From Pagrus major (Eukaryota; Chordata; Actinopteri; Spariformes; Sparidae): a stretch of DNA of 64,000 bases. A program made the position numbers and the translations under genes. Where the stretch lies: contig NC_133220.1 in the NCBI RefSeq assembly GCF_040436345.1, positions 6,760,436 to 6,824,435 on the forward strand, written 5' to 3'. The notes under the pieces are model-generated. The model made no database searches. It was not told where the DNA came from and worked only from the letters and a program-made list of their open reading frames with translations. Below are positions 18,831 to 48,750 of the stretch, piece by piece. Position 1 is the stretch's first letter. Every line of letters begins with the position of its first letter.

Positions 18831-19097
18831 CATTTGTTGTACGTTACGTAGATTCCAACAACCTCATTAAAGGAGTGAAATCAGATCTCTGTGTCAAAGT
18901 GCCTTGATTCTCTGACTGGAGTCACAGTCCATGATCTGCCGCCTCAACCAGCTATCTGTTTAAAGAGGTGTGCCCTCAAACATTGGTCCTTCGAGCCAGA
19001 TTGAGTGCAACCAAATAAGAAGATCATGGACAATGCAGCATCAGACATCTCCGAGCACCGGAGCCGTCCGCGGAGAGACCACTGATTACCTGCTTAC

Positions 19098-20039
19098 TTG
19101 GAGGACTACCAAGTTGGATTCCCACCATCCATGCACCCAGCTCCACATGCTACTGTTTCCCGCTCCTACAGCCACCACGGCAGCAACCCGAGCAGGACAT
19201 CCAGCAGCAGTTTGTACATTCATAGCAGATCTAGTAGGCGCACATATTACTCTGTTGGTACGTATCCCACTCAGGGTCTCTCAACTGCACAAGCTGCAAT
19301 CATGGAAGAGAGAATAAAGCAGTTGGAACTGGAAGATATCCGCCGTTCGATTACGCACGAGACTCAAGCTGACTTGGAGTGTAAACTGCTGGATGATCAA
19401 GCGAAAGAAGCACAGCAGCTCCAAGAAGAGGCACTCAAAGCCCGAGAAGCACTCACTAAGCGGCTAGAAAGACAGCGGCGCTTAACGAGAGCGGAACAAG
19501 ACCTTGAGATCGCCAAGCTTCGTTCGTCGATGTTTTCTGATAGCAGGACGCCTGCACCTTCACCTGCGCCCTCGGACAAGTCAAACGTTTTCCTGGACTT
19601 ACCACCGCCAGTACAGGCTGACATGCTGTCATCTACCTACCAGCTGTCACCGTCAACCCAGTTACATCCAACGCCCGCACCAGTAGTGCGCCCGCGTATT
19701 CCTCCCCCACAAGTGGGGCAACGAGTCATTCCAGTCTCTACGGCACCTCCTGCTGGACCACAGCCAATGCTGCAACCTACTGCCACCCCAGCGATACCAG
19801 CTCCCCTGGCAAACCCGACGGCACAGCTCCAGGGTCCAGTACCCATGGCATCTAGATCTGTGAGACTACAACCTGCCCCAGTGTTAGCACCTGTTCCTGT
19901 GATACAACCGGTGACACACCCTTCGGTGCATGTCATCACCTCAGCACCTTTAGCCCATACGACAGCTCAGGTGGCATCATCTCTCAAGTCACACCGGCTA
20001 GGAAAGATCACCAAATTGTCCAACCCAAAGAGAAGCTGA
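19098..20039 (+). pseudogene. BEL/Pao gag-like fragment
   Basis: A 313-codon frame contains a charged helical stretch (residues about 70-150; rich in Glu, Arg and Gln, as in ...EARKAL-type coiled coils), then a long Pro/Ala/Gln-rich linker. The frame ends at 20039 just before the zinc-knuckle region, which is in another frame, so a frameshift separates them. Confidence 0.65.
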
Positions 20040-20041
20040 CT

Positions 20042-20851
20042 GTGTGCTTCAATACCACTGAGAAGGTAAACAGGGAAGGGACAACCGGGCCAGAGCTTAC
20101 ACAGGCAAGGGCCAAATCCAAGCTTAAACCTTACTGTCCATATTGTGATAGTCGCGACCACTACCTTAACTCCTGTGAGGAATTCAAGAAGCTGAACACC
20201 GACCAGGTCTTACAGTGGCTCAAGGATGGCAAACGGTGTCGGAAATGCGGACGCGATCACACCGAGGACCGTTGCACTCTTAAGCGCCCTTGTAAAACCT
20301 GTAAGGAAACGCACCTCACTGTCTTGCATGAGTCAGTCCACGAAACCAAGCATAAGGTATACACGGTCAGTTTTCTTCCCACAAAGGTGTATCTGGACCG
20401 GCCCAACAGATCTCAAAGGGTAATGCTTAAAGTGGTCAAGGTCCTCCTCCATAACGGCAACCGAAGGATGGAGACTTATGCCGTACTCGATGACGGCTCA
20501 GAGAGGAGCATTGTCCTTCCTCAAGTGGTGCAACAGCTCAACCTCATCTGCCATCCAGAGACTCTACCCCTGCAGACTGTGCACCAAAGCGTTAAGCAAC
20601 TCAATGGTGCATCAGTCTCCCTGGAAGTATCATCACCACTACGGCCATCCGAGAAGCACAAGATATCCAACGCCTTCACCGCAGAAGGACTGGCTCTCGC
20701 CAAACACACTTATCCAGTTGCCATGCTGCAGCAGAAATACAAACACCTCAGAGAGCTTCCCTTACCACTGGTGAACCGTGCCCAACCTTTGCTCCTTATA
20801 GGGTCTGACATGCCTCACCTGATTACCCCAGTCCAACCGGTGCATGCATGA
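20042..20851 (+). pseudogene. BEL/Pao zinc knuckles and aspartic protease fragment
   Basis: Cys/His clusters CPYC...HYLNSC and CRKCGRDHTEDRC, then CKTC...H, are typical of Pao gag-pol. The A17-type protease follows with AVLDDGSERSIV as the active-site region (D-D-G-S). An in-frame TGA at 20849-20851 interrupts the frame just before the conserved PPGGPVAI segment, which continues in the same frame. Confidence 0.75.
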
Positions 20852-21830
20852 CCACCAGGTGGACCTGTTGCCATCTGCACTAAGCTGGGCTGGTCGCTTC
20901 AAGGGCCAGTTGATACTGTCCATCTTTCACCTGGGGTCCAGCAATGCCTGCATGTCGCCACCGCCTCAGCTTCCAGTGAGCTTCTCAAGAACGTGGAGCG
21001 CCTCTGGCAGATGGACGCCTCACCCTACAGTGAGAAGGCTGCCACTCGCTCAAAGGAGGACCAGCAAGCTCTTACTCTGCTCCAGACAGCCACTACCAGA
21101 GTAACAGTAGGTGGCATCTCACGCTATGCCACGCCTCTTCTGCGCCATAGGACCGACATGGCTCTCCATGCTCCTGTGGAAGCAGTACTCTCCAGGCTTC
21201 GTAGCACAGAGCGGAAGCTAGCTAGGAACCCCACACAAGCTGAGTCTTACTGCGCTGAGATCCGGAAGCTGGAAGAAGCTGATTATGTATCAAGGGTCTC
21301 ACCAGGAGAAGCCAGCCAGTCATCAGAGTCATGGTTGATCCCACACCACATGGTCCATCACAACGGAAAGGACAGAGTTGTCTTTGACTGTTCTTTCCAA
21401 TACCGAGGACAGTCACTGAATGAGCTACTGTTGCTTGGACCAACCTTAGGGCCGTCCCTACTTGGTGTCCTACTGTGGTTCCGTCAGCACTCGGTTGCTG
21501 TGAGCAGGGACATAAAGGCTATGTTCCATCAGATCCGCCTGCAGCCCATTGACACACCGGTGCTGAGGTTCATCTGGAGAGACATGCAGAGGGAGGAGGA
21601 GCCGACCATCTACGACGGCAGGTGCTACCGTTCGGCACTACATGCAGCCCCTGTTGCGCTGTATATGCCCTCCAACGTCATGTTCAGGACAACTGTGGTG
21701 ACAAGTCTAACTTGGTCGAGGTCGTGGAGCACTCTTTCTATGTGGACAATTGTCTACATAGCACCCGCACAAACACACAGTATTATCTTAAAATCACCTG
21801 TTAACTTGTGGATTGAAACTGGGATACAAA
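20852..21830 (+). pseudogene. BEL/Pao reverse transcriptase fragment
   Basis: The frame resumes after the stop with PPGGPVAICTKLGW and later WLIPHHMVHHN, RVVFDCS and DIKAMFHQIRL, which are Pao reverse-transcriptase motifs. Near 21620-21650 the frame shifts: PFGTTCSPCCAVYALQRHV and the catalytic-box variant FYVDNCL are read in a different frame. The polymerase is truncated after that. Confidence 0.75.
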
Positions 21831-21844
21831 GATCTGCAACTTAA

Positions 21845-34000: not shown

Positions 34001-37000
34001 TCAGCTTAAGTTCAGCACTCTGGAAAGATTTGGATCCACCTTACGGAGAGCAGCGATCAGGACCGAGCTGGCTACAGTTCCCTTTTTTCGTACTGTGTCG
34101 ATCAACTCTCGTGCTTTATCCTGTATGACCGGTTTTGCTTTAACTGACTGCATTTCTTCATCATTTATAAAGTCCAGATCAAGAAGTTTATCCAGAAGCT
34201 GGTTCAGAACAGGTCCAGACACTCGTCTCACAAACTCTGGTCGAACTAAATGCAGCCTCTGCTCTGCTGGGACCCCGTCCTCTGCTGGGGCATTTCTTCC
34301 TTCAGTTCTCCTTCTCCTTCTTCTTCTTCTATCTAGAAGATACACAGGGGAAAAATATTTTAATAACCAACATCAATTTGAAAGAAAAGTCTTAGAAAAG
34401 CACAAAATATTAAGGTTCTACTGAAACTAGAACTTCACTCAATAGAGCGCATACCTCCACCAAAGCCAACAGCCCCCTTTAATTCATTTAAGGCTTAAAT
34501 TTTAAGCCTAATCCAATACCAAATGTAACATATTTAAATCCACTAGATCCAGTTCTTTATATGTGTCTGCGTCAGATTGTCCTCACTCTTAGATTCCAGC
34601 CACCTAAATACACCAGATTTTTTTCATCAAGATTCATTATTCCCAGTGAAATTAAGAAAATTTACATTTAGGGCATTTAGCGGACACTTTTGTCCAAAGC
34701 AACTTACAATAAGTACATTTGTCACAAGAAAGAAACCACAACATTTCACCGTTGATAAAGTAAGAATGAAAAAAAAAAAAAAAAAGAGGAGGGAGGGAGT
34801 CATGCTATGCTAAATGTTGAAAAACTCTCCATCAATGGTGAAGACAGTGAGGAAAACATTCCTGCATCCGTCCATCTATCTGGATCGGCACCAAATGTTA
34901 ATGAGGTCTATTCTGGACTGTTCACTGCATCCTTTCAGATTTGAATGCATCAGAGACAACACACACCCTTCAACATCACCGCTTCAAATCTATTCTATTC
35001 CTTTCTGTTGTTCCATCAGGTGGATGAAGTCTTACCAGTGAGATCAACGTCATGCTCCCAGACCACCATCTGTCTTTGATCTTTGACTGTTAAAGTCACT
35101 TCTTCGGTGTTTGTAGGCAGGCGGACCTCAAACGTTGGGTCGTAATTTGATCCAAACTCCAGGTCGAAATCTGCACTCTGAAAACCAAAGTGTCAGAATC
35201 TTTATAGTGTCCAATAATGAATCGTGTCAGCATGCTGCAGCACTAACACAGACTTTTGTTTCAAATACTCACCTTAGGCTGTATTTTAATGGCCTGAGGA
35301 CAGTGAAGACTGTAACTTTGATCTTCAACGAGTTTACATTTTGAAGGAACCTGGATGTTCTCTGTATATCGCTGCTGTGTGCTCACCTGAAGAGACATCA
35401 GAACATTTAAACAGTTTCTCCTCAGTAGAGCCTGACATTAACAGGCCAATTATATCTCATCACAGATAAATCAGTATCAGTGTATTTGTAGGTCGCCAAG
35501 TACCATCATATACTGCATCAGTAGAGTGGGGCTGCAACTAGGGCTGGGAATCGTTCAAAACACTCTCGATAGTGGTACCTTGACTTTGATACTGGTTTCT
35601 GAACAATCCTTTCTTCAGTACCAATACATTCATTTAAAAATATAAACATCAGGGTCCACTCACTTCAGATATTCAAGACACGAGAGCAGCTAGGAGCTGC
35701 TTGCTCTGCATTTACAAGTGAATGTGGCAAATTATTTTAATGATCCGTTATCAAAACAAAATGAATAACACGACAGTTTGTTCTGCATAAAATTCCCTCT
35801 TTGTGTTTCCCTCCATCACATACATTGAAAGAACATTATGTAGGGATCTCTTAACATCCAGTATGAATAGAAGAAATCACTACAGCAAGAACACGCTGCT
35901 CAGTGTTCATATGAACATATTACTGTTGTTGTAAGACATATTGTAAAGTTGTCCTTTAGGAGACACGTTTGGACTGACAGCTGTAACATGAAGCTTTACC
36001 TCGTCCAGATGGATGTTCCTCGGCACGAGAAACACGTTGAGTTTTTGTCTCTGTGTTTTTGGGTTTGGTTGTCCGAGGAACAGCAGGACTTTGCCGCTAA
36101 CTGGTCTCGTGTTGTTGCTGTTCAAAAACCTTTTAATAAAATCCTTTACAATGCCAATGGGAGAGAAGTGAGAGACTGTGACAACCACATGAGTGTCTGT
36201 AACCTCCAGCGGCTCCAGGACGTTCATTCCATCATCAGTGATGTGGACGACAGACAGCAGACCTTCAGGCAGCGGAGCTGTGAAAACACAGAGCTGTTTT
36301 GCTCATTACAACTATAGTCCTAATTGTATTGAGTTTTCCAGAACATTGAGCTGATTCTTTGTACAACTGTTGTCCAGGTTGAGCAATTTATTGAACACAT
36401 ATTCAGTGATGGAGGATGGGAAGTCGGTGACTGACTGTGTCCTTGCTCCTACAAGGGGAAGATAAATTGTTGCGCCTTTGGGGAAAATTTTTTTTATTTT
36501 AAGATTTAATGCCTGGTTAGCCATTGCTGTAACCTATCCAGCATCCCAAATGTGGTTGTATTTTTCACTTGGTTGTCGTGTTTTTATAGCCTGTATGAAC
36601 AACAAAAAATTATCAAAGATGGGCTATTGGTGGGCCATCTTCAGAAGACTACAGTTTCACCATGGCCAGAATCAGTAACATCTGTAGTTGCATAATATCA
36701 TTGGCAAGTATGAGCACAGTCTGAAATATCAGATTTCCTAATGAAATCCCTCACATCATGACTTGACCCTGTGACCTTGTCAATCGGGGTTAGGGAAAAG
36801 TGGTTTAGTGAAGACTGTTGAAATCGATGGGGAATATTACTTGATTATTGACTGTTAATTAAATCATTAATCAATGAAATGTATGTTATTATTATTCATT
36901 AATAATCACCAGAGCACCACCCTGGAATCAGAGAACAATAATCAAATGGGGTAAATCCGAGCACCGACTGTCTCAACCAGCTGTTATTAAAATATTAGAT

Positions 37001-40000
37001 GGGCAAAATAACTGCTCAGTTACAATCAGCAGTGCGAATGCTGTAGTTAGGCTTCTGGTTTTACCTACAGGCCTCTCTATTGTCTGCAATATGTGGATGA
37101 GGTCCCAACAAGATATAGTGACTATTCCTTGGCACCGTAAGAAAGAAGAAACTCTCCATTCATATAGCACAATAAAGTCCTTACCATCCATAACTTCACA
37201 GTGAGGCAGGTGGAGCTGACGGACAGCAGCATCCTCTGAACACTTGATATCGAACAGCAGCCCTGCAGCCATCTTGCCAACTGATTTGAGGAGATACTCA
37301 TCCCATTGGACCGTCCTGTACAGCAGCTCCGCCCCCTGAACCATAACAAACACCAGTCCAGTCGATTCACACTGGAACACACCTGGACCAGGACAAATGA
37401 ACCTGTAGGACACGGAGGAGCTGTTAACAACAAGCCAGTCTGTCGTCAAAAGATCTGTTAAGACGCGCAGATGCTTGGCTTTTTTATTCATCATATACGT
37501 TGTGTTTTACATGTTTAAATCTTCCTTTCTGCATAATCTGCAACCTTTCTGCTCACACTGAAAACTATCCCATCGTCCAACAGATAGCAATTTTAAAATA
37601 AGCCAAATTCTGACATGAATTAAGCCTTATGCATATAGCATCTGCCCTGCTTTATGACAACACAAACACATCCAGCTTTTGTCCTGTTAAGCAGCCAAGG
37701 TGTGGACTGAAGACACATGACTTGGACTCAAGACGGACTCGAATCACTTTCGACTCTACTTGACAAAATCAAAGGAAAATTGCAACTAGATTTGGACTTT
37801 TCCAGTAATACTCGTGACTTCACTTGGACTTGAGCCTTTTGACTTGAAAATTATTTATTTACTTATTACCTTCCCCTATCGCAAAGATAAAAAAAATATG
37901 TATTTTTTAAAAAGTGTGCCATCAATCAGCTATTTTCCTTAAGTTACTGAATTACTTAATGTTGACACCATGGGTCCCAAATTAACACCCAACACATTGC
38001 AGATATGGGTAGATTTTCCGTTTGGTCATTACTTTCTTGTTCTTTTACTACAGCGTTTTTATAATTGGATACTAAAATCATAACAATATCCAATTCATTT
38101 TTCATAGGCAGATTTTAAAAATTATCTACATACACTATAAGTAATGGACCACCTACACATTACACCTACAGTAGCTTTTATGACATCCCATTCTAAATCC
38201 GTAGGTATTAATATGTTGCTGGTCCCCCCCTTTACAGCTCTAACAGCTTCCACTCTTCTGGGAAGGCTTTCTACAAGATTTTGGACTGTGTCTGTGGGAA
38301 TTTTTGCCCATTCATCCAGAAGAGCATTTGTGAGCTCAGACACTGAGTTGGACGATAGGGCCTGGCTTGCAATCTCTGTTCTAGTTCACCACAAAGGTGT
38401 TCGATGGGGTTGAGGTCAAGGCTCTGCGCGGGCCAGTCAAGTTCTTTCACACCAAACTTATCCAACCATGCCTTTATGGACCTTGCTTTGAGCATTGGGA
38501 CACAGTCATGCTGGAACAGAAAAGGGCCTTCCCCAAACTGTTCCAACAAAATTGGAAGCATAGAGTAGTCAAAAATGTCTTGGTAAGCTGTAGCATTAAG
38601 ATTTCCCTTCACTTGAACTAAGGGGATTAGGCCAACCCCAGAAAAACAACCCCATAGCATTATCCCTCCTCCACCAAACTTTACAGTTGGCACAAAGCAG
38701 TCAGGCTGGTAAAGTTCTCCTGGTATTAGCCAAACCCAGACTTGTCCATCAGACCACTGATGGAATATCTAGGAGGGAAGACATTTCATAAACTGACTTG
38801 TTGCAATGGTGGCAACCTATTACAGTACCAAGCTTGAATTCAGTGAGCTCTTTAGAATGACCCATTCTTTCACAAATGTTTGTAAAAGCATAATACATGG
38901 CTAGTTGCTTCATTGCAATGGGACTGAATGAAACACCTGAATTCAATGATTGAGAGGTGTGGTCCAATACTTTTGTCCATATCGTGTGTATGAACAGTGT
39001 TCAACATAGCCCCTGCCAAGCCCAGATCTGAAAGGTGTGTATGTGTGAGGGAGGGTGTTTCTGAAGCTGTTTCACCATTCAACAGTTCTGGTGAAGTACA
39101 CTAGCATCTTTTGCAAGAAATGAGCCAAAAGTGCTGAAAAGAGTTGCAGAGGTTTAAGTGTTCTGCATTTCATTTTTTGGTTACCTGTATGACGTCTTCT
39201 GTGAATCAGTCAACAGTTCTGGTGTGAAAACTCGCTTGTCCTAAAATTGAAAAAGGCACAAATATAATGAATTAGACCATATTGGAAAAAATGCATTGAA
39301 ATTGGAGCAGAGACTGCCACTTAACTCATCTTGCTTTTATTCCTCACTTCATTATCCCTTGTCAAAATGACTAAATTGTTGTTTTTAGTGAGATTTGTAC
39401 CCGGTTATCGTTGGTGGCGTATCGCAGCACGAAGCTTTTAACCTTCAGGACAAAGACACTGTTGTAGAACTGGATGAGGTCACCACGTTCCTCCTCCGCT
39501 GTTTGGTTGGAGTTTGCGTCTCCTGAGACCTGATTGGTTTTCTCTGCAGCTGATGAAACAGAAGGATCGATAGTTTAAGAAATCTATCAGATGAAAATGC
39601 CAAATATTATTAATTGAATCCTGTTGGGTTTTCATAATGATTAGTCGGTTAATCAAGTTATTTTGTTTATTAATTAATGGTTTGAGTCACTTTGAGGGCA
39701 AAAAATCCAAAACAGAGATAATTTGCTGCTTTTGTTGGTCTAAAATTATAGTACATTTTATATTTTGAGGCTTTGGTGGGGAAGTCAGACAAGACAAAAC
39801 ATCTGCTCACATTGCTTTTCTTGTCTTTAGTTTTGTAGAACAAATAATTGATACCGACAATGAATGAGAACCTCTTCTGTAACAGTCACGAAAAGCTTTT
39901 CAATGCCAGAAAGTCTTTTCGAAAGGTCTGTTGGATTTTGAAATTCATACATCCAGAATTCCCAAAATGTTTGTTTGATGAGGTTCTGAGGACCAAAATG

Positions 40001-43000
40001 TTGTTATAAAAGTGAGTGCAAGAGATCAACAATGCACAAAACTTTCTGGTTCAGTTTTTCAGAGGAAACAAAAAACATCACTTCAGTAAAAATGCTCACA
40101 ACTTATATAAAAAGATGCTGTAGACAAACTGATTTCAACCTGTGATGGGGAAATTGCTTCATTAGACTTCTTCTTACACAGTGTGTTTATGAAGCATTTC
40201 AGTGTGAGATTCTTACATTCGCCTCCCGAAACAGGATCCACCTCCATGTTCTCATCAGCCACCTGCTCTCTAGGAGTGTGACGCAGCAAGACGCTGTGGC
40301 ACACCTACACACACATACACACAAACAGTGAGCTTCTACAAAAAAACTTGTGCAAGATGTTTTTCAGTTCATGGATTGTTGTTGTATCATAATGGTTTGC
40401 AGTGGTCTGTCCGTGTGTTCTTACATGACTGCTGGCCTGTGGTTGGCTGCGGTAACACTTCATGATGTCACGGAAGGTGTGAGTCTCTTTGGTGACCTGT
40501 AAGGGAGGATTGAATCACAGGAATTACAACTAGTGTGTTAGCACGCCTCATAACGTCTGAAGAAGTCTGTTTCCACCACTGAACATTTGACTGTTAAAAA
40601 CCTGGTTTCATTTTTCACAGAGTACATTCAAATTCAAGCATATTCTTGAAACCATTTCAAATGAAGCATTTTCCAAACTCTGAAAACTTTGTATGAACCC
40701 TGGTATTAAAAGTTACTAGACCCTAGGATTATGTGAGTAAAATTTCTCTGGCAGGTTTTCAGGATCGCTGCCAGAAACATATTTATCCTGAAACCACAGC
40801 AGCTTATGCTGAATTAAATAAGAAGTGTTTGGTTTGTTTCCTCACTTTTGATATGATGTAAACGCTGCACAGCAGCAGCTGGTCGAGATGTCTGCCCTTC
40901 ATCAGATCAGTACTGTGAACCAGAGTGTGTTCAAAACATGTCCAGATTTTCCCTCGCAGCTCCGACGGGATGTCCAACTTCACACACAAATCCCTCAGAC
41001 GTACACTGGCCAGATGATACACCTGGAGACACACACAGAGGAGACAAGATGGTCAGAAGACAGAAACATCCATCCGTCAAAGTGTGTTTATATTCTATCA
41101 GACAAAGTGAAAACTAATCAGTCCTCATGTGGAAATATTCTGCTATTGAACAAACACACTGAAGACACGGGCAGGATTTGTTGCAGTTATAAAATGTCTC
41201 TTTTAGGAACTCTTTCCCTCAATTTATACTAAAGTTAATCACTGAAGTCACATTTAAGATGACCAATTATTTTTTCCAGTTCCTACCTTCCTGAAGAACA
41301 GAGCGAGGGATTCAGTGTGCCGCAGCCCACCACTTCCGGTCTGTGGGTCTGAGGTCGTGGGTGCGGCTGTGACGCGGCTTGGGGAGGCGGTGCGGTGCGG
41401 TGAAGCCAGCAGGAACTGAGCGTTGATGGTACCAGAGGAGTCGCAAGACTGAACCGGGATCAGTGTGATGGTTCGGTCGTTACTCATACCTGCAGATATT
41501 CACAATAAATATAAAAGATCATATCATAGTCATACCATCCATCAAAGACCATCCTACCCTCAGGAAGTGAAACTGTCCACTCAGGGGGCAGGACATAATT
41601 CAGATTTGTCTCATTGAAATTAATAAAGAAATGTTTCTGGTCTAAACGGCGTCATGACAGATGTAAAAGTGCTTGTTCAGACCCGAGACCAAGATGTCAA
41701 ATGTCATTCAGATCAACATAAAGAAGACATTTCTGAAGGGGTCTTTCACTGCAGTTGTGTCTGTTTTATGCATCAGCATCTCCTTTGTATCCTCCGTGTT
41801 CAGTTATGTAAACATGTGTAAATGTGCGTGTCGTCTACCTTGCAGTGGGAAACTCAGCACGGTGGCCGGGCTGCCCTGAGCTCCGATCCTCAGGGTGCTG
41901 GTCGAGCTGAACGTCAGCCTTTTAGCTGGTGAGGACATCGGGCTCAGGGTCACTCCTGCTGCTGGAGGGTCATCACCAAAGAGATGTTGTTTAGGGCTGC
42001 CAGCTGCCAGGGAGCTGTACCGGTCATGGACCGACAACGGAGAGGGAGGAACATCTGGAAGAAAACAGATAATACATTTTATCACAGTTCATTTTTTAAC
42101 TGCAAATACAAACTATTTACACACAGATGCAGTCAACACCCACCTTTACGTGCACTGCCCAGGCCTGACCTGAACTCCCTGATGCGAGGGTGGATGACGG
42201 GGGGGAGGGCAACCAGAGGCAGGTGGGTCTGCCCTACGCTGGTAGAACTAGAACCAGAACCAGAGCCTGTGTCCAGACTGGACGAAAAATTCACCTAGAG
42301 AGAGATGAGGAGAGAGAAAGTGAAATAAAGACAAAGACAGGAAGTAGCAAGACAGGCAAAAAAGGATATTTCTCTTATGTTTATACAGTCAAAGTGTGAC
42401 GGGTTAGGGTGCATCCAAAAGCAAACACCTGTTGTATTGTACTGTAAGTAGTGCAAGATCACAAGTTCCCTTAATTGACTGACTTCCTGCTCAAAGTGTC
42501 ACTCAAATAAATAATTTTATTAATTTTTGATTTTTTGTGCTGACACATGCCAAATAGAACCTTACGGAGGGCCAACTTTGGCCCACAGGCCCAACTTTAG
42601 GCAGCCCTGAGAAAAATAACAAAAGACAGCCAGCAAAGGAAAGGAGCAAGTAACATCCTTCATAATGTTGCCTTTTATGTCTATGATTTAGCCTTGAGGA
42701 CTTATTTTTCCATTTCAAGACAAAAAATCTACATACGTGGTGTCATAATGACAGCTGTTCTCTGCACAGTGACATCTTCTTTCTCAGCAAAAGTGTTTGT
42801 ATCTTAAAGCAAAACCAATTGAGGCACACAGCTGCACTAGTATTAAGAAATATATTCTAGAAAGTTGGAACGCCTTGATTTATGGCAGAGAAACTTCTGC
42901 TTGAATCAACAAAATAAGATTCCTGCTGACCTCCTCCACTGTGGGCACTTTGTTCCCTGCATCCTGTAAGGCGCTCCACAGGGCGGAGTCTGCGCTCCAC

Positions 43001-44201
43001 GCTTGGCTTTCCAGAATCTGCTCCTCGATCTGGTTTAGATGTTTCACCATGTCTCTGGACAGGCCTTCCTCTGAGCGGATAAACACCTCGATCACCTGCA
43101 CACACACACACACACACAAATATTACTTAGGAAGCTGACACGAGTTTTGCCTGAATGTGCTTTTTCAGCAATTGATAATTAGATTTATTGGCAACTGCAG
43201 TTGAACTTTGTATCCAACAGACTCCTGACTGGCTGTTTAAAGATGTTAAAGCGTGTACGTTTTAGTGTGTGTGACCTTGAAAAAGTCAAATGGGGACAGT
43301 TTGAAGATGTTGATGATCCAGGGGAAGGTTCTCTGAGAGCTGTAGGAGAACAACACCACCTCCAGACAACACGCCATCAGGGAACAGTGGAAGATATCCT
43401 GCTCCAGTAACGTCTAACAACACACACAGATTCATATTTATCACTCATGTGGCAGCCAACTGATTATCACAAAACACTGAAACACATCTGGAAATGTCTA
43501 ATGAAACAAGGAAGGAAAGAAAAAGTGTTACTTTATACATATATTAAAAAAAGAAAAATTCTACCGGATGAGAAATTTCTGAGAATTTTGGGCCATTTCA
43601 AAGAACTATGTAAAACATTTACTGTATATTAAATCACTCATGTATGAAAGTTTACTGATGTTTAACCACATCTGGTTGATAAGTCTCAAACCTTAGAAAA
43701 AGCTAGTAAGTGGATCTTTGAGGGTTTTTTTTCTGAATTTTCCATCAATCTTCTCATCAAACAGAAAGACTACTATTGTATAAGGATATGAAACACACTG
43801 AGAATGATGCTTACACTCATGTCTTTGCCGTGCAGCCGTTTGGTCTCCTGACTGATGACGTTCTCCAGGATCTTGTAATAAAGGATCTCAGCCAGTTTCA
43901 AACGGTTCTCTGCAAAGTCTGGAAAAGACAAAAGGAAGATCGTTTGTATGTAGTGATTGAGCTGTGTTGACATGTAAAACTACAGCGTGTTATATAAGCA
44001 CAATATATAGTATTTTGTGTATAGTACAGTGGCATGAGTAAATCCTCTTGTAAGATGATTTAAGAAGGTTGAAGCATTGTTGTTTCAAAGTTGTGTGACT
44101 GCAGATTGTTGAACCACCTGCTCGAGATGTTTATTACATGTTGTCTGTTTGAAATTCAGGATAACTCACCAAGAACTATTTCTGCTTTATTTATACTTAT
44201 A

Positions 44202-44262
<61 letters not shown>

Positions 44263-47200
44263 TACCTATATGAGAGCCTGGCATGTCCTCTGAGTCTTTG
44301 GTGTAATGTTCTTTGAAGGTTTGTCCCAGTGTCTTCACTCTGGTCAGGATGTTGTCTGAGGGATCTCTGGAGCACGACCTTTAATAAACAGCACAGGACA
44401 CACTGTTACTATGGACAGTAAATATTCACATTTCACACAGTAACAATAACTGAACACCTCAAAACAATTAAACTAAAGCAATCAAATTGACATCATTTAA
44501 AAATAGAGCCTGACCGATATTTGCCCTCAAAGATGTTTGTTTATCGACGTTATGATGATGATGTGTTTGTAGGATTTGTCATGATCCATATGGGGGCATT
44601 TTATGTTCTTACTGCTCAAAGTTTTGAAGGAGCTTTGTGGAAGTTGTGTGTTGTGCTGGAAGATCGTTGTTAGTTTATGTCAGCGGACTCCATTTCTAAA
44701 CTAACATTAGCTACTGTTGCTCTGAGACGAGGCACTCAAACATGCATAAAGTCACATCCTCTTAACTGTCATGGAAAATCTGAACTTAAAACAAATCGTC
44801 CATCAGTATTAATTACTGAACATTTCTTAAAGAAACATTCCAAAGAAGACACCAATATGCATAACTTTAGCACCCACATTTGATCTTTATAATAGGACGT
44901 TTAATGTATGTTCCAATGAAATGTTACCATAGAATATACAACATAGATTGGTAATACAAACACCCCCCACCCCACCCCCAACTGTTTTCCAATAAATATA
45001 CACCAATTACAGAAAGAACCCTGAGCACAAAGAGGAACTGACCTGAAGATCTGCATCAGGTGGTCGCTCGGGGACGTCCTTAATCCGGCCACCATGCTCT
45101 GCAGCCGGCTGACACTCTGCGTCGCAGAGGAGACGGGCGTGACGAGCAGGTCCTTCTCCTTCAGGTAGACTCGTCCTGTCAGAGGGGTGGAGGGGGCGAG
45201 AGAGGCAGACTGCGCACACACAGAAAGAGAGAGAGACAGAGAGAGATGATTTCTACTTCACTTGATTGTACATTTTGATCAGGATTAGTTAATGCTTGGA
45301 TTGTTTCTTTTCAACTATTAAGAGTTTTTTTGTTTGTGTTTGGGCATGTGAAAAAAATTAGGGCTGTCAATCGCTCAAAATATTTAATTGTGATTAATCG
45401 CATGATTGTCCATAGTTAACTCACTATTAATCGCATGTAAAAAGCATGTTGCATCTTGTTTTAAAAAGCAGATGTGAAACAAATTGTCGATAAACTAACC
45501 ATCTCTGAGAATTGGTTATGGACACTACTATGAGTACTTTTCACTACTTTCTGACATTTTTACAGGCCAAACAATCCATAAAATGAAATGTAAACACTCA
45601 GCTGTTTCATAGCTTTTGGTCAGAAGTATGATTTAGAATTTCAATTAAAGTTAGTGCATCTGTTTTTGTTGAAAGTCTGTTATGTAGATCTTCAAGTAGT
45701 TTCCTCTCTTGATTTAAGTTCTGATAAGTCTTAAAGGGATATGAAAAAGCACAGTGACAATCTGATAATGTACTCAGATATATGATGATCAAGATACTTG
45801 ATGGTCGTTACCTTTTTTCTTTTCCAATACTTTTGATTTAACTGACGTTGGATTCTCTGAGAAGAGGAGACACAAAAAGGGCAAATGACATGAATAAAAC
45901 TGAACCAGTAAAATATAATGGGGCACTTTTTAATCAAGTTATTGTTGAACACAAAGAAAAGATTTGTGTGCATCTTTCAGGGAATCTACCTTCTTCTTTC
46001 CTTTGCTTTGTTGGACCCGTATACTATAATTTTGAAGTATAGCTGAGCGCCGGGAGATGGCCTCTCTCTGAGGTCGCAGACGCTGGTACTCACTGTACAA
46101 GGTGGCAAAATCATTCTTATACCTCTGACGCTCCTCCGGAGAGGTGATCACTGTGTACTTCCTTGGAGGGAAAGGAGAGAAAATCTTAGTGAGAGAGTTT
46201 AAATATGTATACATTTCTCTTTCAAGTATTTGGCTCAAGTGAGAGGAAGAATGATCATTAGAGGGAGACTTAATGAGAGGTACTAAGGCCTAGTCCACAT
46301 GTACATAGGTGAAAAATAATCACCTTCCAGACGAGTGATTTAACAGCATTTCAGAATAATCTCTGTGGTCAGTTGCTTAGTTACAGAATTCCTATGTTAC
46401 ATTGAAAATTGATGGAAATGAACCTTCACTGTCAACAATCGAATTAAAAAATGCAGTACTGACAATTTCTTTACAAAGACGGCTCATGGAGGAAAAACTG
46501 AACTGACTGAACTAAAGTGATAACATTGGCAAAGATCCTTTCTTGATTTTCTTGGGAAGATGGTTTACTTTGTAACAAACTGAATTTGAAGTTGAATTCA
46601 GTTTTTCCTCCACGAGTAAACCATCTTCTTAAATAAATCAATAAAGGATCTCTGAAACATCTCAGAGGCTGCTGGAGTTACCTTCATACCAGTCTCGTTT
46701 GTCTTGGTGCACACAGGATAAGTGTCTGTAATTCAGTGAGTCCATCTTAAGTCTCTGCACTTGTCCTGCATTATGAATATAAATCATTTAGCAGGACATT
46801 TTGTCTTCATCCTAAACACAGCATCTTCCATCTGGTCAGTTTACAGTAAAAAAAAAAAAAAAAAAAGCGTCTTACTCTGTGTCTGAGGGTCCAGTTACAG
46901 TACTGGGCTTGACGATCTTTTGAAGAGGATCTTGGGACAAGTCACTATCCAAAGACAGCTGCTCCTCTTCAGAAACATGACTCCTCTTCGTACCTCTGTG
47001 GAGAAAGTCCTGTTTGACTGAACTGATTTGTTGATTGGTTTTTAAAAAATAAATAAGATTTAGCAAAAAAAATTAGAGAAAAGTTTCTGTTCTTTTCTGT
47101 TTGAAATCCAGCATTCAGTCTGCAATGAATATTATTTTTATTTTTATTTCAGCTCCTCTGCTTTCATTAACACTAATAAACTGCTCTTCCAGTAGAAGTG

Positions 47201-48750
47201 GTGACAATAACTGTGGTAGACCAGCAGGATTTAAAATGTCATCACTTTGTCATTTTATCATATTGGACATTTTACACATTACATTTTGTCACAATAAGCT
47301 CATTAATTCTTGTGTTGTGGCCAAAAATGTTCTTTTGTGAGGACACAGTGACCTTTGACCACCAAAACCTAATCATCCTTGAGTCCAAGTGGACGTTTTG
47401 TTTTCAGATATAAGAAAATTCCCTCAAGAAGTTCCTGAGATCAGGAATGGGACTGACAGATGGACGGACAACATGAAACATCACGCCTCGGCCACAGTGG
47501 TCGCTGACACTGAGGCATAAGAATCCATTTTGAGAGTTGCTGAGTGATGAGATACTTCACTAACTTTGTGCAACTGTTACTGTAAATTCTTAGTCATCTG
47601 TGCCATTTTATACATTCAGCATCAAATGCAATACATTAAGACTTTAAGTCAACATTTCGTCTTCATCCAAGATGCATCATCTTCTATCAGGTTAGTGTGA
47701 AAACATTTGCTTACTTTGTTTCTGAGGGTCCAGGTTCATTACTGAACATTGGAGGATGATCTTTAGAGCCGTCAGCCTTCACAGACAGACAGTCAGATTC
47801 TCCAGACTCTGATTTCCGTCTGTTGTACTGAACTCTGCAAACACCAGGATGTTTTTATTCATAAACACATGAATTCTTCTTATATTCTCTACTAAGATCT
47901 TTTAAGATGTCTAAAAACACAAAGTGGTGCTACTGTCCATAATAAGGTGGTTTAAAAGTTTGTAAAGTCAGTGACAGCTGTCACAGACACTCAGAGGGAG
48001 ATGTGACAAATTAATTCTCTGTGTCACAACGTTTTGCAGCAAACACTGAATTAGTTGGTATCAGTTCTCTTACTTTGTGTATAGTGGTCTACGTTGAATC
48101 CTGGTCATTGGAGCATATTCATTGGACCGGTGACCCTTCACAGATCTGGATTCTGCAGACTTTGACCTCTCTCTGTGTAAACACCAGGACATTTTTATTC
48201 GTAAATCATGAATCCTTCTTACATTCTGATTAAAATTAAAGTAATGTAAAATGTAATTTTAGACATATTTTCAACACCAGTCACAGACGTCTAGAGAACT
48301 TCTTGTGGGTCAAAATTAAAGTTGTGATCACAGCAGCTAACAGAATTGCAAATGATCACATTCTGTTTTACTTGTGTTTTACACAAAAGCCCAACTTTTT
48401 GGGAGTCTGGGTTGTAAGTAACTGCTAATCCTGCTGCTGGAGACACTCGACAACAGGATGTGTGATCTGGTTATAGCTTGTGATTATGAAATAGATCTGC
48501 CATCTAGCACTTGCTTAAAAATATGGAGGTCTGACAGAGTATTTCTTCAATTCCTGAAGCGTAATGTTACTCTAACATTTAGCAAATGGCAAAATATAAT
48601 CAGCTAACACTGAATGAGTTAGTGTCAGTCCTCTTACAGTTTTTTAACTTTTTGGAGAAGATGATCTTTAGAGCCGTCAGTCTTCACAGACAGACGGCTC
48701 GATCCTGGAGACTCAGCCCCGTCCTTCTCTTCCTTCACAGAATCACTCAT
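34001..48750 (-). CDS. G4: N-repeat-OCEL-Rb pocket-ZU5-UPA-CARD candidate fusion gene
   Basis: Cluster-type exons: 48638-48750 (starts [10 protein letters not shown]), 48074-48172, 47715-47834, 46876-46995, OCEL exon 1 45990-46161, OCEL exon 2 45812-45856. Then the twelve pocket exons at 39401-45209, then 39185-39240 ([19 protein letters not shown]), ZU5 37185-37402, ZU5/UPA 36000-36277, 35273-35386, 35036-35177, CARD 34001-34332. The OCEL exon 3 counterpart (45607-45729) diverges after LHNR and reaches a stop. If it is skipped, exon 2 (ends phase 0) joins the first pocket exon (begins phase 0) and the total is 3552 nt, 1184 codons with stop. FIIND retains the catalytic His and HF|SP. A run of seven Arg precedes the CARD. 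The domain content is well supported; single-transcript continuity is inference. The alternative is separate transcripts or a pseudogene. Confidence 0.6.
34660..34795. repeat. Interspersed repeat in the G4 CARD intron, shared with G5
   Basis: TTTACATTTAGGGCATTTAGCGGAC...CCAAAGCAACTTAC resembles a widespread teleost repeat and ends in an A-rich tract. The same insertion is at about 53455-53590 in G5 but not in G1, G2 or G3, which makes it a marker that G4 and G5 share ancestry in this interval. Confidence 0.6.
36470..37150. other. Diverged ZU5 intron of G4
   Basis: Unlike the corresponding intron in G2, G3 and G5, this stretch is mostly unalignable by eye; only short matches remain (around 36740-36800). 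Together with the diverged linker exon it marks a part of G4 older or less homogenised than the rest. Confidence 0.45.
37680..37870. repeat. ACTTGGACT-rich interspersed repeat
   Basis: Repeated GACTTGGACTC/GACTTGA words suggest a fish interspersed repeat. Weakly similar AAGTCAAGACAAGGTCC-rich sequence occurs at about 28050-28145 and 58760-58845. Confidence 0.4.
38131..38990 (-). mobile_element. Tc1/mariner-type transposon relic
   Basis: The right end (GTCCAATACTTTTGTCCATATCGTGTGTA) and a shortened left end (TACACTATA...GGACCACC) are inverted Tc1-like termini. On the minus strand 38271-38693 encodes the C-terminal part of a transposase with [21 protein letters not shown] and the [12 protein letters not shown] region. 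The N-terminal part is missing or broken, so it is non-functional. It lies in the G4 intron between the linker exon and ZU5. Confidence 0.85.
39185..39240 (-). CDS. FIIND-family linker exon joined to the pocket exons (G4)
   Basis: This 56-base exon encodes [19 protein letters not shown], the counterpart of DKQHFLPELLTESGKTSYR in G2, G3 and G5. It starts in phase 0, matching the phase-0 end of the last pocket exon, and ends in phase 2, matching ZU5. It is visibly more diverged than the other three copies are from each other. The intron beyond it also aligns poorly, to about 39380. Confidence 0.8.
39401..45209 (-). CDS. rbl1-like: RBL1/p107-like pocket domain exons, partial retinoblastoma-family gene
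   Basis: Twelve exons: 45043-45209, 44266-44378, 43815-43918, 43276-43413, 42931-43095, 42144-42294, 41839-42054, 41287-41489, 40846-41022, 40425-40496, 40217-40304, 39401-39549. They total 1743 nt (581 codons) with no stop and matching phases. Pocket A begins at [13 protein letters not shown] and includes [28 protein letters not shown] and [20 protein letters not shown]. The spacer has [20 protein letters not shown]. Pocket B has [28 protein letters not shown] and FYNSVF. Wording favours RBL1 over RBL2. In Rb proteins the pocket binds E2F and LxCxE proteins. The Tyr-Asn pair (39461-39466) and the Tyr of VYHLA match LxCxE-cleft residues of RB1. The N-terminal cyclin-like exons and the C-terminal tail exon are absent on both sides. 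Introns are kept, so this is a genomic duplication rather than a retrocopy. Confidence 0.9.
44203..44261. repeat. (TG)n microsatellite
   Basis: About 28 TG units immediately follow the donor of the second pocket exon (transcript orientation). Confidence 0.97.
45358..45480. repeat. Transposon-derived repeat at the OCEL/pocket junction
   Basis: AGGGCTGTCAATCG...TTAATTGTGATTAATCGCATGATTGTCC resembles a common teleost MITE-like repeat rich in GATTAATCGCA. It lies between the last OCEL-related sequence and the first pocket exon, close to the breakpoint. Confidence 0.5.
45607..45729 (-). pseudogene. Degenerate OCEL exon 3 of G4
   Basis: Starting at 45729 the frame matches OCEL exon 3 through [15 protein letters not shown], then loses all similarity ([11 protein letters not shown]...) and ends at a stop at 45607-45609. 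No usable donor is visible before the stop. This is the point where G4 departs from its paralogs. Confidence 0.65.

Follow-up and report, generated by a model that had tools for sequence, protein, structure and literature searches.

Can the pocket domain of a retinoblastoma (Rb)-family protein become part of an inflammasome-type sensor? This question is raised by a stretch of 64,000 nucleotides from the 786-Mb genome assembly of the red seabream Pagrus major (C6:6760436-6824435, hereafter the window), in which twelve exons coding for an Rb-family pocket lie within a gene whose other exons encode OCEL, FIIND and CARD domains. To answer it, we ask what the pocket exons are, where they came from, which gene received them and whether the two parts are likely to be spliced into one product. 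The analysis covers this single assembly, of which 224 kb around the window were joined for blastn. Related proteins were collected with a pocket query (1393 found, 120 listed) and with a FIIND-CARD query (322 found, 120 listed). Coordinates without a prefix are window positions.

Identity of the Pocket Exons

The pocket exons occupy 45209-39401 on the minus strand, have AG/GT borders throughout and together encode 581 codons with zero stops. Exons 1 to 4 lie at 45043..45209, 44266..44378, 43815..43918 and 43276..43413, and exon 5, at 42931..43095, contains the end of the A lobe. The spacer is encoded by exons 6 (42144..42294) and 7 (41839..42054) and runs into exon 8 (41287..41489), where the B lobe starts; the B lobe continues through exons 9 (40846..41022) and 10 (40425..40496), is followed by exon 11 (40217..40304) and ends in exon 12 (39401..39549, donor CGG/GTACAA). 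Pfam recognizes both lobes, RB_A with 275.5 bits (3.5e-82) and RB_B with 195.2 bits (6.3e-58), and the best-matching solved structures are those of the p107 pocket (4yoz and 4yoo). A preliminary description of this DNA had proposed a twelve-exon, RBL1-like A-spacer-B pocket of 581 stop-free codons, which is borne out by exon borders, Pfam models and structures alike. Its account of the joins is likewise correct in coordinates and phases: phase 0 holds at both ends of the pocket block, at the end of OCEL exon 2 (45856-45812) and at the start of the linker exon (39240-39185).

Two short motifs deserve attention. Exon 12 retains the B-lobe sequence FYNSVF, which is conserved in the copy, aligns with RB and is assigned by us, as an assumption, to the LxCxE cleft. 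Exon 7 reads KQHLF at the place where the donor gene rbl1 has KRRLF, presumably the cyclin-docking motif of p107. The outer regions of RBL1 are absent: the N-terminal domain PF11934 is listed for the rbl1 protein P0002 and absent from the listing of the fused protein P0001, and the corresponding donor exons have no counterpart here; at the other end the donor continues with ADAPPLSPFP..., a C-terminal region that is absent at this locus, where homology to rbl1 stops 12 bases past pocket exon 12. The earlier observation that the N- and C-terminal rbl1 exons are missing is thereby confirmed, and tblastn of P0002 finds both in the donor gene. Because these two defining regions are absent, the fusion is to be classed as CARD8-like, with a novel N-terminal domain, and not as a full member of the Rb family.

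Origin of the Pocket Block

The preliminary description had suggested looking for a full-length rbl1 locus elsewhere in the genome, and such a locus exists: tblastn of P0002 (1066 amino acids, N and C termini included) places intact rbl1 at C6:6718984-6706736, on the same strand and ~93 kb from the pocket block, so that the block is to be read as a partial duplication and not as a misplaced rbl1. The main rbl1-derived segment, introns included, extends over 39389..45333 (minus strand) and corresponds to C6:6707367-6712654, the main blastn pieces being 93.9-97.1% identical. Ahead of it, a 237-bp fragment of rbl1 intron 1 (45434..45670, minus strand) is 92% identical to C6:6717464-6717686; judging from this match, the duplicated DNA apparently started within intron 1. 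The 4.8 kb of donor DNA that follow the intron-1 fragment, and that code for approximately residues 60-366 ahead of the pocket, are missing from the copy. Between the two rbl1-derived pieces lie ~100 bp of filler (45334-45433) that do not stem from rbl1, are AT-rich and perhaps represent a dispersed repeat.

Compared with the rbl1 exons, the copy differs at 39 of 1743 bases without any gap (97.8% identity); compared with the introns, it differs at 149 of 3287 (4.5%) or 175 of 3286 (5.3%) bases, depending on the alignment (~95% identity). The encoded protein is 97% identical to the pocket of Pagrus rbl1, and at 20 amino-acid sites copy and Pagrus rbl1 agree against RBL1 of Sparus aurata, which makes the duplication younger than the split between Pagrus and Sparus. 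On these comparisons, the pocket block almost certainly represents a partial, intron-bearing, local duplication of rbl1 that took place in the Pagrus line.

A second pocket fusion elsewhere in the genome was looked for with RB_B, only the best candidates being scored, and 13 of these matched: the rbl1-like ones map to C6, in two separate stretches, and the others to C8, C4 and C13. In Sparus, RBL1 (P0003) and the CARD8-like protein P0240 are listed on contigs of equal length (40124345) and are probably encoded on one chromosome, as they are in Pagrus. An origin of the pocket block as a retrocopy was also considered and was rejected because the introns have been kept.

The Recipient Gene

This part of C6 contains an array of six FIIND genes of the OCEL-FIIND-CARD (CARD8-like) type, three on the plus strand (window ~-13.4 kb, -0.5 kb and 13.1 kb) and three on the minus strand (26.3, 37.4 and 56.8 kb), and solely the gene at 37.4 kb carries the Rb pocket. 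All exons of this recipient lie on the minus strand. The first coding exon (48638..48750) is open, has a GT donor and is also the first exon of the NCBI model P0001, which contains an extra N-terminal exon of 33 amino acids at 48073..48171 (tblastn of P0001, 100%). An N-terminal repeat exon (47715..47834) and a further N-terminal exon (46876..46995) lead to OCEL exon 1 (45990..46161), which encodes the first half of an ELL-type Occludin_ELL domain: PF07303 reaches 29.2-29.7 bits here, below its cut-off of 31.2, the region shares 44% identity with Sparus ELL across 86 amino acids, and PF07303 is listed for P0001. OCEL exon 2 (45812..45856, donor AAG/GTAACG) contributes 15 amino acids and runs from phase 0 to phase 0.

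Beyond the pocket, the gene resumes with the linker exon (39185..39240), which is nearest to array gene 1 (82% with flanks), and the ZU5 exon of the FIIND (37185..37402; FIIND model, 94.2 bits). The second FIIND exon (36000..36277; Pfam FIIND, 49.2 bits) contains the motif SHFSPIG and then the start of the UPA, and was aligned to NLRP1. On this region the UPA-FIIND model scores 24.9 bits, below its cut-off of 27; the domains listed for P0001 include PF13553 and PF23679. UPA exons 2 (35273..35386) and 3 (35036..35177) are followed by the CARD exon with the stop codon (34001..34332; Pfam CARD, 69.1 bits). One exon, located after OCEL exon 3 and kept in the five other array genes, has been lost from the recipient, and in an alignment to two Acanthopagrus relatives the 581-residue pocket replaces OCEL exon 3 together with this following exon. 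Pocket-free relatives exist in both Acanthopagrus and Sparus.

The backbone that received the pocket has a history of its own. When the OCEL domain of an Acanthopagrus latus relative was used as a query, 45 proteins were listed, P0001 not being among them: 32 carry PF10390 and are ELL-type elongation factors, seven combine OCEL with FIIND and come exclusively from Sparidae (A. latus, A. schlegelii, Sparus aurata and Pagrus major), and six are other fish proteins of the FIIND or NLR type. These matches, together with an identity of 60-63% over ~100 amino acids between ELL and the OCEL of Acanthopagrus and Sparus, indicate that the OCEL domain derives from ELL. The OCEL-FIIND-CARD architecture is itself unusual and reflects a domain that this gene family had captured before. 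Moreover, the FIIND backbone changes fast: between the recipient and array gene 3, nonsynonymous divergence (dN) is 0.037 and synonymous divergence (dS) 0.030, a ratio of 1.24, and the ratio to gene 2 is 0.80, which reflects either an arms race or relaxation.

The Predicted Fusion Product

Joined in order, the recipient exons, the pocket and the FIIND-CARD exons give 23 exons and 1150 amino acids with no internal stop. P0001, annotated by NCBI as an "uncharacterized protein [Pagrus major]" of 1183 amino acids, is identical at both joins and differs by its extra N-terminal exon; its listed domains are RB_A, RB_B, Occludin_ELL, FIIND, UPA and CARD, with no NACHT or LRR. It alone combines RB with FIIND among the matches listed for the two queries. 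Literature searches that paired retinoblastoma with FIIND and CARD matched only work on myeloma, those for retinoblastoma-like, inflammasome and fusion gene matched nothing, and those for FIIND with occludin gave only matches unrelated by title. In the sections available of a review of fish NLRs, FIIND is mentioned 10 times and Pagrus never (PMC12436146). A model of P0001 by AlphaFold2 (22 sequences) is poor, with a mean predicted local distance difference test (pLDDT) score of 43.8 and values >70 confined to the CARD and a portion of the B lobe.

Several observations weigh against a single spliced product or a maintained pocket, the first of which concern OCEL exon 3. A remnant of this exon (45607..45729, minus strand) has kept its acceptor AG; recipient homology ends at ~45678 and is succeeded by rbl1 intron-1 DNA, in which the frame reads on to a TGA at 45609-45607. 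The stop and the intact acceptor together imply that the fusion requires skipping of OCEL exon 3. In a donor-site matrix trained on 20 local donors (range 4.3-11.9), a donor-like GT at 45555, after the remnant, scores 10.3, compared with 9.5 for the donor of OCEL exon 2 and a low 1.9 for the last pocket donor (39401), whose nine bases are identical in rbl1. Skipping is plausible because the exon has lost its own donor site, yet it is not certain. Furthermore, of the four NCBI array models inspected (P0001, P0121, P0242 and P0243), P0121 and P0242 appear to join exons from two neighbouring genes. For this reason P0001 is weak evidence for a transcript, and it may have been made by the same program without transcript support.

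The single spliced product put forward in the preliminary description thus stands as far as the open frame over 23 exons and the identical joins of P0001 are concerned, and is weakened by the need to skip exon 3 and by the little that P0001 says about a transcript; the exon 3 remnant with its stop, the rbl1 donor 93 kb away and the lost recipient exon had been missed. On balance, the sequence inclines us slightly towards a spliced fusion product as predicted. As a separate observation on the array models, P0121 has its N-terminus, of the RING-NACHT-LRR type, at around -21 kb and reaches as far as a CARD at 2.2-2.5 kb.

Sequence Change in the Copied Pocket

How has the pocket fared since it was copied? 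Pairwise dN/dS between copy and rbl1 is 0.32. If the intron rate of 5.3% (4.5% in the other alignment) is taken as neutral, ~33 amino-acid changes are expected on the copy and 19 are found (P for <=19: 0.005). Exonic insertions and deletions (indels) number 0 in 1743 bases vs 4.5 (non-simple) to 8.2 (all) expected (P 0.01, non-simple only), the introns of copy and rbl1 differing by 31 indels, of which 17 are outside simple repeats; for stops, the count is 0 vs 1.4 (P 0.23). The deficit of amino-acid changes is concentrated at the start of the pocket, with 2 changes vs 14.3 expected in residues 1-223 and 2 vs 12.6 in the A lobe, although these segments were chosen after the changes had been seen.

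The remaining points against a maintained pocket come from the distribution of these changes: 19 of the 20 amino-acid differences arose on the copy and one on rbl1, a much higher rate of change in the copy, and 17 of the 19 copy changes, including KRRLF to KQHLF, depart from the donor, Sparus and five other fish alike. The other two (sites 393 and 542) introduce residues that also occur in some other fish, and Y171D yields the residue that RB has at that position. Spacer and B lobe have evolved nearly neutrally at the intron rate (17 changes vs 22.3 expected), and with a synonymous yardstick, whose changes are unpolarised, a clear deficit is left only in the A lobe (2 vs 10.7) and not in the spacer and B lobe. 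Read from sequence alone, this pattern fits constraint that is relaxed, not absent, and is a poor match for a pocket retained for the full set of p107 functions. Gene conversion behind the conserved A lobe was considered and set aside; it would have had to spare the diverged introns 1-3 (7.9, 7.4 and 3.9%).

Alternative Explanations

It is possible, if doubtful, that the duplication is real and the pocket exons are nevertheless debris: recipient transcripts would then end in OCEL exon 3 or be unproductive, and the frame would still be open as the copy is young. The in-frame stop and the donor-like site at the exon 3 remnant speak for such a passenger, and in simulation a neutral copy as old as this one remains stop-free with a chance of 0.23. 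Nor is the in-frame landing remarkable in itself: phase 0 occurs at 7 of the block's 12 exon ends, which gives a chance of ~0.17 for a phase match at both ends on the same strand. The bias of changes towards the copy and the near-neutral spacer and B lobe can be read in the same way, but the complete lack of exonic indels and the deficit of amino-acid changes, above all in the A lobe, speak against debris, even if all these tests depend on the intron rate and the A-lobe split was made post hoc.

Two further explanations concern the locus as a whole. The pocket block might be a long intron, with OCEL exon 2 spliced straight to the linker and a normal-type OCEL-FIIND-CARD protein as the product; this join is in frame as well, but twelve exons with intact splice sites would have to be skipped together and the one NCBI model inspected for the gene includes the pocket, so that we consider this explanation improbable. 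That rbl1 sequence was misplaced into the array during assembly is conceivable in a gene array that contains repeats and was seen in one assembly; it becomes highly improbable in view of zero N bases in the joined 224 kb, an rbl1 gene that is itself complete elsewhere, and an intron divergence of ~5% with indels of its own, which renders a duplicated contig or allele unlikely.

Proposed Mechanism and Decoy Hypothesis

For the spliced fusion, we propose the following course of events: rbl1 DNA from intron 1 to just beyond the last pocket exon was almost certainly duplicated ~93 kb along the chromosome into the array gene; in whatever order, as the sequence shows, OCEL exon 3 was cut, the next recipient exon was lost and the copy came to lack the 4.8 kb that contain the rbl1 coding exons preceding the pocket. 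Splicing would then set the pocket between OCEL exon 2 and the linker, with pocket exons 1 and 12 at the two joins, and the product would consist of N-terminal repeats, half an OCEL, the Rb pocket, ZU5, UPA and CARD. By analogy with NLRP1 and CARD8, the FIIND would cleave itself at HF/SP and the pocket-bearing N-terminal part would restrain UPA-CARD until its unfolding or degradation frees UPA-CARD for nucleation of an inflammasome. The FIIND aligns with NLRP1 through to the CARD, and F-S-P and the catalytic histidine are conserved; a point against this reading is that the catalytic glutamate is off by one position in the alignment. The literature gives H1186, E1195 and F1212-S1213 as the autoprocessing residues of NLRP1 (PMC9700037), describes its activation via degradation of the N-terminal part as "functional degradation" (PMC7483925) and names viral proteases as triggers (PMC7857732).

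Why should such a sensor carry an Rb pocket? The pocket could serve as bait for anything that binds Rb-family proteins or destroys them, an attractive idea, if an unlikely one, that we suggest by analogy: once a pathogen protein that binds and degrades members of this family had removed the N-terminal fragment, UPA-CARD would be released. With a similarly small likelihood, a lineage of fish sensors might capture nuclear-regulator domains that are targeted by viruses, the OCEL of ELL in Sparidae and then, in Pagrus, the Rb pocket as an integrated decoy. FIIND sensors are assumed to respond to the destruction of their N-terminal part, and a decoy role has been proposed for them and is unconfirmed (PMC7483925). 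Several viral proteins bind pRb, often along with p107 and p130, via LxCxE or similar motifs; some of these proteins cause degradation of pRb, and one of them, EBNA-3C, is said not to degrade p107 or p130 (PMC12197514). For fish polyomaviruses, PMC4836724 annotates the LXCXE motifs in large T as hypothetical sites of pRb binding.

The fish FIIND-CARD backbone also occurs with other N-termini: among the matches listed, these are PYD (P0130), caspase (P0199), RING-NACHT-LRR (P0126 and others) and a stonustoxin-like part (P0186). Given this variety, N-terminal exchange seems to be usual for the backbone. A young fusion of a classic virus-targeted domain with FIIND-CARD would open the decoy idea to direct tests and illustrate how new sensors can arise by local duplication; even if unexpressed, it offers a clear example of two genes fused in frame within a single lineage of fish.

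Other Features of the Locus

Between the two FIIND exons of the recipient, a stretch of 114 bp (36334-36447) is conserved in five of the six array genes; by eye it continues the ZU5 frame to a stop and may be an alternative last exon of a CARD-less form. An open frame at 38271-38768 (minus strand), in the intron between linker and ZU5 exon, resembles a Tc1-like transposase, and long open frames at 19086-21844 (plus strand) resemble a retroelement of the BEL/Pao type. Another FIIND cluster is found at C19:27003434-27055558, where eight matches of 161-165 bits, in frames of 606-1491 codons, span ~52 kb.

Comparison with Known Systems

Plant NLRs that carry integrated decoys (cited in PMC7483925) follow the same principle as the fusion, an immune receptor joined to a domain that is a target in the host; the receptor class is another, and the decoy role in Pagrus is putative. 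With RBL1 (p107) it shares A lobe, spacer and B lobe, but it is devoid of the N- and C-terminal regions and has KQHLF in place of KRRLF. The CARD8-like proteins of Sparidae (Acanthopagrus P0122-P0125, Sparus P0240 and Pagrus P0243) likewise have N-terminal repeats, OCEL, linker, FIIND and CARD; unlike the fusion, they retain OCEL exon 3 and the next exon, PSTSES, and RB domains are listed in none of them. Finally, CARD8 and NLRP1 resemble the fusion in their ZU5-UPA (FIIND) with the F-S-P motif, their C-terminal CARD and their variable N-terminal part, which in the Pagrus fusion, in contrast to both, contains an Rb-family pocket preceded by half of an OCEL of the ELL type.

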